Positions 3,158 to 5,756 of a DNA stretch of 64,000 bases are shown one piece after another. Where the stretch lies: contig AP017959.1 of the NCBI GenBank assembly GCA_002356215.1, forward strand, positions 1,364,001 through 1,428,000, in the 5' to 3' direction. Source of the DNA: [Synechococcus] sp. NIES-970. Lineage in GTDB: Bacteria; Cyanobacteriota; Cyanobacteriia; Cyanobacteriales; MRBY01. Position numbers and translations under genes: made by a program. Numbering within the stretch: position 1 is the stretch's first letter; every line of letters begins with the position of its first letter. The notes beneath the pieces are model-generated. The model saw only the letters and a program-made list of their open reading frames with translations, did no database searches and was not told the DNA's origin.

Positions 3158-3709
3158 CTATGGCTGACCTGCCACGCGCTCAAGGATAAAGAAAAATGGC
3201 TGGGTGGATTGCTTGAAATCCATCACGCCGAATACCTGACTTTCGTTGATTTTCCTGAAGGAATCATTAATGGGCAGGCAGTCATAGATCATGGTGGCGC
3301 TGACCTTGCCGCGATATTCCATCATTCGGAGTCTGGCTTGGCTTTTTTCGGTTTTAAATAGGCCATTGAGCAACCCCAGAAGCGGCTTAAAGGCAGGGTT
3401 TTTTGGCATGGGCAATTTCAAAACTATCTCCATGGTTTTTAGGTTGGGAGCTACTTTGAAAATTTCTCCCTGACGACCAGAAAAAAGCAGTGGATGTACG
3501 GTTTCCGGATCAATGAATTCTTTGCCATACCAGTTACTGAGTTCCAGGAGGCCATCCATCGGATGCCCTGTATAGATACCCCGTCCTCGCCAACGTCCCC
3601 ACATAAAATCAAGAGCAACGGTTTCGAGGCTGTCAAAGAGTTCAAGGGCTTGGTGGGTCGTGCCTTGACCTGCTTGTAAAATGCTTGATAACTCAGCTGC
3701 GGTCGTCAT
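3158..3709 (-). CDS. GXWXG / DUF4334 domain protein
   Basis: A 183-residue soluble protein with no signal peptide or membrane segment. The first third carries the GXWXG motif as WGRWRGRG (about residues 37-44) followed by a conserved GHPMDGLL stretch. The second half matches the DUF4334 pattern (MEYRGKVSATMIYDCLPINDSF, shown here only in part as MEYRGKVSATMIYD). The family is widespread in bacteria and has no firm biochemical role. The stop lies only 23 bases beyond the convergent pgi stop. Upstream is the 250-base gap holding the orphan repeat copy described at 3858-3918. Confidence 0.75.
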   Translation of the reverse strand: MTTAAELSSILQAGQGTTHQALELFDSLETVALDFMWGRWRGRGIYTGHPMDGLLELSNWYGKEFIDPETVHPLLFSGRQGEIFKVAPNLKTMEIVLKLPMPKNPAFKPLLGLLNGLFKTEKSQARLRMMEYRGKVSATMIYDCLPINDSFRKINESQVFGVMDFKQSTQPFFFILERVAGQP

Positions 3710-3857
3710 CGGATATCGCTCTCAATCGATTTTTGGAAGCCTTTCCATAGGCTAGCAAGAAATCAGGGTGCTGGCGGATCTTGAAACAAGCTGCCTTTCT
3801 AGGTGGGATGCTGGCGACATAGCAAGTCTTAATTTAGATTATTGGCCTTAATTTTTT

Positions 3858-3918
3858 ATCGCGTTTTGAGGAGCTGGCAATAGGCGAACAAAACATCAAT
3901 GCAGTGGGCGATCGCCCC
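3858..3918. repeat. Truncated copy of the 3' end of the M42 peptidase gene (copy A)
   Basis: This segment matches 4557-4617 at 55 of 61 positions, and at 45 of 46 over 3873-3918. Read on the minus strand in the peptidase frame it still encodes GAIAHCIDVLFAYCQ, then LLKTR and an in-frame TAA. So it looks like the remnant of an older, functional C-terminus. The identity stops abruptly just after a HIP1 palindrome at 3908-3916. The Uma2 gene lies between the two copies. Confidence 0.85.
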
Positions 3919-3964
3919 AGAAGACATCGACTAAACTGAGGATATCAACACTCCCAGAAAAACC

Positions 3965-4528
3965 ATGGTTGCCAATGCAGTTCGCTGGACAGTACAGGAT
4001 CTCGAAGCCATGCCCGACGATGGCGGCTGGAAACGCTATGAAGTGATTGATGGAGAATTAATTGTGACCCGCGCGCCCCATATTTTTCATCAAAGTGCTG
4101 CCAGTCGGCTCCATGTTGCCTTAGGTAATTGGTCAGACCAATCAGGTCTTGGTCGTGTTTTTGAGGCTCCAGGGGTGGTGTTCTCTCCGAATGATGGCGT
4201 GATTCCAGATGTGGTGTGGGTGAGCAATGCGCGTCTCGAAACGGGTGTGGATGAGTCAGGGCATTTTACCGTTGCGCCGGAACTGATGATCGAAATTCTT
4301 TCGGCGGGCAAACTGAACGAGCAGCGGGATAAAGAGGCAAAGCGTAAATTGTATTCGCTCTATGGGGTGCAGGAATATTGGGTGGTGGATTGGCGACTGA
4401 AAACGATTGAAGTTTATCGACGCAATCAGGCGCAGTTACAGTTGGTCTGCACGCTACTGGGAGATGATTTTCTCACTTCACCTTTATTGCCCGATTTTGC
4501 GATCGCCATTGATCAAGTCTTTCGCTAA
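3965..4528 (+). CDS. Uma2 family (DUF820) endonuclease-like protein
   Basis: A 187-residue Uma2 protein, a PD-(D/E)XK nuclease fold very common in cyanobacteria. Visible family features are YEVIDGELIV near residue 25, IPDVVWVSN (the acidic residue of the PD motif, about residue 80), the ELMIEILSAG strand with its glutamate, the DKEAKRKLYSLYGV helix and EYWVVDW near the end. Function is not established; members occur as single genes or in large paralog sets and look horizontally mobile. It is flanked by two direct copies of the 3' end of the adjacent peptidase gene, so the 699-base unit 3919-4617 looks like an insertion that replaced the peptidase C-terminus. The ATG at 3965 gives the normal N-terminus. 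Confidence 0.85.
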   Translation: MVANAVRWTVQDLEAMPDDGGWKRYEVIDGELIVTRAPHIFHQSAASRLHVALGNWSDQSGLGRVFEAPGVVFSPNDGVIPDVVWVSNARLETGVDESGHFTVAPELMIEILSAGKLNEQRDKEAKRKLYSLYGVQEYWVVDWRLKTIEVYRRNQAQLQLVCTLLGDDFLTSPLLPDFAIAIDQVFR

Positions 4529-4556
4529 GTTTGACTTTATCCATACCGATTAAGCC

Positions 4557-4617
4557 ATCACATTTTGGGATGCTGGCAATAGGCGAACAAAATATCAATG
4601 CAGTGGGCGATCGCCCC
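4557..4617. repeat. Direct repeat copy B: current 3' end of the M42 peptidase gene
   Basis: This is the partner of 3858-3918. It holds the last 19 codons and the TGA stop (4558-4560) of the peptidase gene. The single difference within the 46-base core changes one Ile codon to Val in copy A. The copies are in the same orientation, 699 bases apart. Confidence 0.85.
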
Positions 4618-5610
4618 GAGGTGAGCAATCTCGTAACCGTGGGTATTTTCGGTGGGGAAACTGAGACAAGCACCCCGGCATACATGGCCAAATTTCATCG
4701 CGATCGAGGCATCACTACCAAACCCCTGGATAATCGCCTGTTGGAGGGGACGGTTAATTTCGGCAGCAGCGGTGAGAATTTCTTGATTTAAGCCTTCGTC
4801 ATAGATGCCATAACCGTCTTGGGAGAGTAATACGGGTCGATCGCCCCAGGCGATCGCATACTCCCGCGCCAGAGGACAAATTTCCAAGGCGACCAAAGCA
4901 TCCAATTGGGTGTTTTGACTGAAATAAAGGGCTCCCAATGCCCCCATTTCTTCCTTGGCAGAGGCCACTAGATAAACATCTTGGGGCGGATTTTTGAGCC
5001 GTTGGGCCAGTTCAATCAGAATTACGAGAGAAGCTTTATTGTCCAGGGTATAGCTGGCGATGTAATTTTTCAGGCGGAACGGTTTTTTGCGATGTTTGCC
5101 GACCACCACCCGGCTGCCAGGACGCACCCCAGCGGCAAGTAATTCGGTGCTATGGCATTTTGTTTCCAGCCAGGCCTGATGCCATTGGACCGGTTTTTCG
5201 GTTTGCAAGAGCTTCTGGGGCGATTCGTGGGACACATGGCGCGAACCGAAGCTGAGAATCCCGGAAATCGTTGCCTTATCGCCGAGGATATCCATTACCC
5301 CTTCGCCGTAGATCCAGGGGTAAGCGCCGCCCAGAGCCCGAATTTCGACCCGGCCCGTGCGTTCATCGATTTGTTTGACGATCGCCCCAATTTCATCTTT
5401 GTGGGCGGTGATGGCGATCGCCCCGGCATCCGGGTTTTGACCCGAAATTTTCACGATGATGTTACCGGCCCGGTCTTGCCAATGATGAACCCCAAGTTTG
5501 GCAAAAAGACCGAGGAGATAGTGATCAATTTCCATTTCCTGGCCACTGGGGGAATGGTGCATCACTAAGGTCGAAATTTGCTCAAACAGGCGATCAAAAT
5601 CGTGACTCAT
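4558..5610 (-). CDS. M42 family metallo-aminopeptidase
   Basis: A 350-residue cytoplasmic peptidase of the FrvX/glutamyl-aminopeptidase/TET family, which removes N-terminal residues from peptides with a dinuclear metal site. The ligand set is visible in order: AITAHKDEIGA (His and first Asp), YTLDNKASLV (bridging Asp), SAKEEMGALG (catalytic and metal Glu), ALEICPLA and, near the C-terminus, PTENTHGYEIAH. The frame opens at a TTG at 5616; the ATG at 5610 (MSHDFDRL) is the more likely start. The last about 20 codons are duplicated beyond the Uma2 gene, so the C-terminal residues QHPKM seem to have arrived with that insertion. Upstream, in the same orientation, is the glutathione peroxidase gene. 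Confidence 0.88.
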   Translation of the reverse strand: MSHDFDRLFEQISTLVMHHSPSGQEMEIDHYLLGLFAKLGVHHWQDRAGNIIVKISGQNPDAGAIAITAHKDEIGAIVKQIDERTGRVEIRALGGAYPWIYGEGVMDILGDKATISGILSFGSRHVSHESPQKLLQTEKPVQWHQAWLETKCHSTELLAAGVRPGSRVVVGKHRKKPFRLKNYIASYTLDNKASLVILIELAQRLKNPPQDVYLVASAKEEMGALGALYFSQNTQLDALVALEICPLAREYAIAWGDRPVLLSQDGYGIYDEGLNQEILTAAAEINRPLQQAIIQGFGSDASIAMKFGHVCRGACLSFPTENTHGYEIAHLGAIAHCIDILFAYCQHPKM

Positions 5611-5756
5611 GGTCAAAAAATATAGTTAATGTGAGGAGATAAGCAGGAAAAATCGCCCCCATATTGTCGCAACTCAGTCTGAAGAAAAACGGAAGTTTCG
5701 AGGAGGGCGATCGCCAAATTAAAATCCCATTCCGAAGAGGGACATCGGGGGATGTT

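Follow-up and report, generated by a model that had tools for sequence, protein, structure and literature searches.

Duplication of a peptidase gene end around a Uma2 gene in a cyanobacterium suggests a HIP1-linked insertion that spares the host gene

Recombination linked to the HIP1 palindrome was reportedly noticed in Synechococcus by Gupta in 1993. Such recombination is also documented for plasmids of PCC 7002 (Akiyama 1998) and by Robinson 1997, both as cited in PMC4390886, and for Synechococcus in PMC9239245, as far as the excerpts of these papers go. The accessible part of PMC4390886 adds that the HIP1-rich groups of cyanobacteria carry several chromosome copies per cell. A different line of work concerns insertion with long target duplication, described by Nobusato et al. 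(2000, as summarized in the citing passages of PMC3031569 and PMC1643837). By comparison of related genomes, these authors found restriction-modification genes of Helicobacter pylori lying between direct copies of the target (same citing passages). Finally, one-sided recombination in Escherichia coli can give duplications, and the available text of PMC3240628 reports a duplication-diagnostic PCR product in 56 of 60 clones as well as duplications of 109-950 bp in 14 sequenced clones.

The Uma2 family (DUF820, PF05685) is presented in the available sections of PMC2701414 as a likely solo toxin and a predicted nuclease, abundant in cyanobacteria and found mostly in cassettes of paralogues; an expansion of the family in Thermosynechococcus is mentioned in the accessible part of PMC9403480. 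In the open-access literature, as represented by the extracts available to us, we found no mobility route for Uma2 genes, and no paper in that literature was found to link gene-end duplication, HIP1 and Uma2.

We analyzed a stretch of 64,000 nucleotides of contig AP017959.1 from [Synechococcus] sp. NIES-970, hereafter called the window. A repeat search of the window retrieved a direct repeat of 61 bp, whose copies A (3858-3918) and B (4557-4617) are spaced by 699 bp and are the same at 55/61 positions (90%). In the core of the repeat (3873-3918 and 4572-4617), 45/46 bases match, and the match between the copies stops 2 bp past the HIP1 palindrome GGCGATCGCC, located at 3907-3916 in copy A and at 4606-4615 in copy B. 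Copy B is the in-frame 3' end (...GAIAHCIDILFAYCQHPKM*) of a gene encoding an M42-family peptidase on the minus strand (4558-5616; PF05343, E 2e-57), in which HIP1 occupies codons of GAIA and, read along the gene, is where the duplicated stretch begins. Copy A, whose minus-strand translation reads GAIAHCIDVLFAYCQLLKTR* and possesses its own stop codon, is an orphan duplicate of this gene end on the far side of Uma2 from the peptidase. The Uma2 gene itself lies between the two copies on the plus strand (3965-4528, 187 aa; PF05685, E 3e-37, 128.3 bits for a cut-off of 27), tail-to-tail with the peptidase gene. It belongs to a predicted nuclease family and has relatives in the PDB (9y1l, 6okh, 1wdj and 3ot2). 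Its leader (3907-3964, plus strand) consists of HIP1, 8 bp and a promoter-like stretch, the HIP1 of copy A being the junction between copy and leader. The duplicated peptidase end pointed out by an earlier, sequence-only reading of this DNA is thus confirmed.

Uma2 is the only ORF of more than 80 aa in the window insert, in which we found neither an integrase gene nor a methyltransferase: the cargo is Uma2 alone and no restriction-modification system. Twelve repeat pairs passed the threshold in 464 kb of DNA, made up of the window and 20 arbitrarily placed 20-kb stretches from four genomes, and the M42 pair was the sole one within the window. HIP1 occurs 114 times in the window for about 1 expected, so that its presence alone is unsurprising.

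The same locus was sought in five other genomes of the genus (G001 to G005), which makes six genomes in total with that of the window (G000). In the closest ones, G002 and G003, the same Uma2 gene occupies the same position next to this peptidase gene, and the gene of a GXWXG/DUF4334 protein, left neighbor of the locus in the window (3158-3709, minus strand), is kept. Both genomes also display a DUF29 gene to the left of Uma2. This gene is intact in both of them (in the G003 locus L018 at 2178-2633; DUF29 profile, E 4e-52), and the window keeps of it only the apparent last codons (about 3825-3851, plus strand, boundaries set by eye). Copy A has decayed in G002 and in G003. At its position, G003 retains GCAGTG ahead of HIP1, and G002 contains a shortened sequence whose match to copy B of the window extends about 8 bases beyond the stop codon. 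The score of the G002 sequence was reached by 0/5000 shuffles against copy B of the window, 24/5000 against copy A of the window and 64/5000 against its own copy B; the match of the G003 sequence is weak, with 306, 110 and 1179 of 5000 shuffles, respectively. Judging from this comparison, and mainly from G002, the duplication is probably older than the divergence of the window species, G002 and G003.

An old duplication has a consequence for the likeness of the copies. The third codon positions of the peptidase gene differ at 38% between the window and G003. At half of this divergence, the chance of so small a difference between copies A and B, one base in 46, is 0.0007. An old copy under no constraint should have accumulated more changes, and a later gene conversion is a likely reason. 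Copies A and B have therefore probably been homogenized afterwards, by gene conversion, in the window lineage.

The peptidase gene is also present in G001 and G004, without Uma2 behind it, and G005 gave just a match of 23 bases to the peptidase region. Relatives devoid of Uma2 had been expected to possess one peptidase end resembling copy A. The single end does exist in G001 and G004, and it resembles both copies alike: 33-35 of 42 bases match each of them, copy B being closer by one base, and these ends are too distant to polarize the copies. In G001, this M42 peptidase gene is immediately followed by ORFs that look by eye like a broken transposase (L020 2003-2886), so that this gene end may have been hit repeatedly.

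Flanking duplications are not confined to the window. We found 105 Uma2 genes, 2 of which lacked enough flank. Counting orthologues of related genomes separately, 10/103 Uma2 genes displayed a direct repeat between their 500-bp flanks at a score of at least 25, against 4/421 control ORFs taken from arbitrarily placed stretches and the window (Fisher p 3e-5; 1e-4 with the window excluded). A second control, composed of ORFs beside Uma2 genes, gave 2/165 at the same score. At a score of 30, the figures were 7/103 for Uma2, 4/421 for the controls and 1/165 for the Uma2-neighbor ORFs. A first small comparison, using another score and 800-bp flanks, had given 4/49 Uma2 loci versus 2/75 ORFs at a score of at least 25 (3/75 when the limit was set at 20). 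Six of the ten Uma2 positives correspond to ends of host genes, namely those of the M42 peptidase, RNase Z (L099), a Gfo/Idh protein (L023/L030), RecQ (L204), an MFS transporter (L203) and a methyltransferase (L212). The remaining four (L184, L024, L139 and a second row of L204) are not clean host-gene ends, 93/103 Uma2 genes have no flanking repeat, and two of the four control matches are paralogous neighbors (L222). Because the sample is enriched in Uma2 loci and most of the controls are ordinary genes, the excess observed for Uma2 may reflect only its being an accessory gene. Other accessory families yielded no flanking repeat (DUF29 0/5, MNT 0/2, HEPN 0/3) in samples too few to be informative. 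As for plasmids, weak Uma2 matches were obtained in 2 of 72,556 records. A 50-bp direct repeat with 98% identity was also seen in G001 around an ORF of 183 aa (L226, 7811-7860 and 8433-8482); it was not recognized as a gene end.

Comparing gene ends with the 5 kb downstream of them gave 38 matches from 1483 ORFs. The same scan of an 864-kb sample gave 7 matches from 750 ORFs, at loci that overlap with the 1483-ORF set. Seventeen rows were dropped (paralogues, inserts of less than 200 bp and one doubled locus), and 25 rows were kept, representing 19 loci. The latter include a leucine-rich array that is not a real case (L067) and three loci where the host gene is itself Uma2 (L200, L182 and L043). 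Across six genomes, the gene ends repeated past an inserted gene, often Uma2, are those of RNase Z, RecQ, purL, clpB, an oxidoreductase, transporters and a helicase. The pattern is not specific to Uma2, because the insert behind clpB encodes an aromatic amino acid lyase and that behind a DSHCT helicase gene a protein of 128 aa with no Pfam match; Uma2 is thus a frequent cargo and not the sole one. The mirror scan, for gene starts copied upstream, returned 5 matches from 750 ORFs, 3 of them in arrays (L163 and L222) that were excluded as paralogues from the gene-end scan. The two non-array cases, L175 and L228, contain no HIP1 in the visible start of the copy. With 3 ends kept versus 2 starts in the 864-kb sample, ends are not clearly commoner than starts. 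At L175, in the window genome, the start of what we take to be a dephospho-CoA kinase gene exists twice, 2.6 kb apart (2376-2493 and 4988-5105; 118 bp, 84%), with no HIP1 in the part seen.

Two further arrangements deserve mention. Behind purL, G002 displays copies of the gene end both around a DUF6883/DUF4926 pair and around Uma2 (L107, 2616-3877). The window genome possesses the pair and no Uma2 (L146, G000:C1:1669391-1671353), and G003 possesses Uma2 and no pair (L125), as if small units accrete behind this gene. On another note, the DNA downstream of an ABC-2 permease gene (L105 1800-5248, in G002) and that downstream of the DSHCT helicase gene (L231 2223-4500, in G003) appear swapped between these two genomes, as by an inversion or an exchange between two gene ends containing HIP1. 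Both of the swapped loci carry a gene-end duplication.

The proposal that HIP1 can bound these duplications is supported by the edges of the copies. We scored a copy as HIP1-edged when, within an edge of 14 nt, it opens with HIP1 or with at least 7 of its bases. In gene sense, the 5' edge of the copy satisfied this definition at 8 of the 19 loci, for 1.2-1.4% under the null (p ~1e-10), and at 5/13 loci (p 5e-7) of a stricter set without Uma2 hosts, the leucine-rich array and copies needing HIP1 to pass; these p values are guides only, since loci were fetched through Uma2, some of them are related and the window itself prompted the test. Both of the loci kept from arbitrary stretches outside the window, those of clpB and the DSHCT helicase, are HIP1-edged. 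RNase Z and Gfo/Idh, both among the cleanest cases, belong to the 11 loci that have no HIP1 at the edge by this definition. Among the loci scored as misses, two do contain HIP1, just beyond the 14-nt edge at the purL locus L107 and at the opposite edge at L203.

HIP1 is also encountered on the Uma2 side of the joint. It is present within 120 bp upstream of 44/104 Uma2 ORFs versus 211/1095 other ORFs, starts being those of the longest ORF. The Uma2 gene of the window can be aligned with two Uma2 genes from other loci of Limnothrix RL_2_0 from HIP1, via the leader, to the stop codon. At HIP1 the match with these two loci is 10/10, and it falls to 0-3/10 for each 10-base step to the left, where the two Limnothrix loci match each other at 1-6/10. 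Because the similarity begins at HIP1, the Uma2 unit seems to bring its own HIP1; with the HIP1 of the peptidase end, the joint is then HIP1 to HIP1. The RecQ locus gives the same picture, since the HIP1 at which the duplicated RecQ end arrives is also found at the front of the leader of the neighboring Uma2 paralogue. A HIP1 at the leader edge was observed at L028-L030 and, similarly placed, at L074 from Spirulinaceae, and is absent from most of the 57 loci whose leaders were compared. Its restriction to Picosynechococcus and Limnothrix, which we had considered, is ruled out by L074. In many of these 57 leaders, across cyanobacteria, a TACACT-like word is seen about 35 bases ahead of the ATG.

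Where did the second gene end come from? At RNase Z, G002 and G003 show an empty site, that is a single gene end running directly into the downstream sequence, and the entire Uma2 unit is missing from both together with the duplication. A gain of Uma2 with no transposase in the insert, as had been put forward, is supported by these empty sites. In the window genome, the distal copy of the RNase Z end joins the downstream sequence and the gene itself terminates with a different tail of a few codons. At RecQ, by comparison with G001, which has its own Uma2 nearby, the distal copy likewise runs into native-looking downstream DNA. By analogy, it is plausible that copy A is the original peptidase end, as the sequence-only reading held. 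These junctions would also suit the origin which that reading had favored, in which a cassette, made of Uma2 and a peptidase end of foreign origin, entered the gene by homologous recombination, copy A being the native end that stayed in place. A second point in its favor comes from the ABC-2 permease locus L105, where the copies are unequal with respect to G003: the proximal copy matches G003 at 39/40 positions and the distal one at 37/40, for 38/40 between the copies. However, the deviating copy at L105 is the distal one and not the proximal one. At this locus, the two copies do not resemble each other more than they resemble the relative. The match between copies clearly exceeds that to any compared relative at RNase Z (47/48), RecQ (99/106) and clpB (80/88), the two copies being about equally far from each relative. 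For the M42 copies, the margin over the relatives is just one base, and those of the DSHCT helicase (L231) tie with G002. On balance, the self-like copies found at several loci favor a duplication of the host's own end over the import of a foreign one, and we consider the foreign-end cassette unlikely.

One could also imagine that the gene end plus Uma2 was duplicated in tandem, by unequal crossing-over between HIP1 sites or by one crossover with a circle, and that one of the Uma2 copies was lost where needed. Uma2 would then have stood beside the gene beforehand, and its arrival could be separate from the duplication. The presence of HIP1 at both ends of the unit here, in the leader and in the peptidase end, is in keeping with such a scenario, as are neighboring Uma2 genes with repeated leaders or tails (L204, L200) and the E. 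coli duplications, which the available part of PMC3240628 explains by circular molecules joined through single crossovers. Nevertheless, two steps are required at most loci, and at RNase Z the Uma2 unit and the duplication are both absent from the two close relatives; we therefore regard this origin as rather unlikely. The rebuilding of gene 3' ends around an insert is typical of the att sites of integrases. The repeats could accordingly be att sites, or else long target-site duplications of a non-autonomous element, inserted by an integrase or a transposase. Against this, the duplicated stretches stem from distinct genes and, HIP1 aside, show no apparent relationship, their lengths vary from 25 to 106 bp across the loci discussed, and at loci with Uma2 only, the Pfam-recognized gene of the insert is Uma2. 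By inspection, no att core is shared across loci, HIP1 alone being common to some of them. Such an insertion appears very improbable to us. A last alternative is a weaker form of the reading that we prefer and overlaps with it: HIP1 would be a bystander, simply the commonest of the 10-bp words that two sequences may share, any of which would do. Its frequency of 1.65 per kb of sampled DNA, its occurrence in the last 150 nt of 188/750 genes and the loci without HIP1 at the edge are all compatible with this idea, to which the HIP1-linked recombination reported in Synechococcus in the parts seen of PMC4390886 and PMC9239245 is opposed. We see the bystander role as a serious possibility and lean against it.

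We propose, with moderate confidence, that the M42 locus results from a HIP1-anchored, one-sided illegitimate insertion that would have duplicated the end of the host gene while sparing the gene. That a Uma2 unit was inserted next to the 3' end of a gene and that this end was duplicated, as the sequence-only reading had it, is supported. The order of events at the M42 locus might be the following. In an ancestor that the window genome shares with G002 and G003, a piece composed of HIP1, the promoter-like leader and Uma2 would have entered beside the peptidase gene. The HIP1 of the leader would have paired with the HIP1 present in the last peptidase codons on an intact copy of the chromosome, and the end of the gene, starting at this HIP1 and reaching slightly beyond the stop codon, would have been copied or crossed over. 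The other end of the piece would have been joined illegitimately right behind the stop codon. The product would read gene, HIP1, end, Uma2, leader, HIP1, second end and old downstream DNA. Later, the window lineage would have lost most of the DUF29 gene and probably homogenized copies A and B, and copy A would have decayed in G002 and G003. The presence of multiple chromosome copies per cell would help a HIP1-anchored join. As the gene keeps its full end, the host gene survives, and such products can persist.

A more daring hypothesis is that Uma2 behaves as a homing-like selfish nuclease gene. The predicted enzyme, or the HIP1-linked recombination of the cell, would open HIP1 in a host gene end, and the unit starting at its own HIP1 would be copied in with duplication of this end, so that the host survives. 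We judge this hypothesis distinctly unlikely. If it were true, HIP1, which exists in thousands of sites per genome, would be a portable landing site and would explain how Uma2 genes spread in cyanobacteria without a transposase. The loci described here illustrate how a foreign gene can enter the last codons of another gene without harm to the latter. The recurring footprint, a host end copied from HIP1 toward the stop codon, links the function of HIP1 with the abundance of Uma2 in cyanobacteria, and HIP1 may let accessory genes slip in while leaving their neighbors intact.

How does the proposed insertion compare with known systems? The homologous anchor of homology-facilitated illegitimate recombination is long, whereas the anchor here would be of about 10 bp. 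At the joint on the leader side, HIP1 is the sequence in common with other Uma2 loci. The resemblance to that system, as far as the available text of PMC3240628 describes it, would lie in the combination of one homologous and one illegitimate joint; according to the same text, the usual product there is a deletion of host DNA, whereas host DNA is duplicated here. With HIP1-linked recombination, our loci have in common that HIP1 marks the joints, and one of the organisms in which this was reported is closely related to that of the window. The events described elsewhere are plasmid recombination, excision and inversion, and those reported here are chromosomal insertions that duplicate gene ends, known from sequence. 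Lastly, like insertion with long target duplication, the M42 locus and the other loci display a direct duplication of the target around the insert. An empty allele is present at RNase Z, and the insert of the window locus is common to G002 and G003. Unlike in that system, the host is a cyanobacterium, the insert is mostly a solo Uma2 gene, the target is the 3' end of a gene and the edge of the duplication is often HIP1. What we observe is thus best read as insertion with long target duplication in a variant form that is linked to HIP1.
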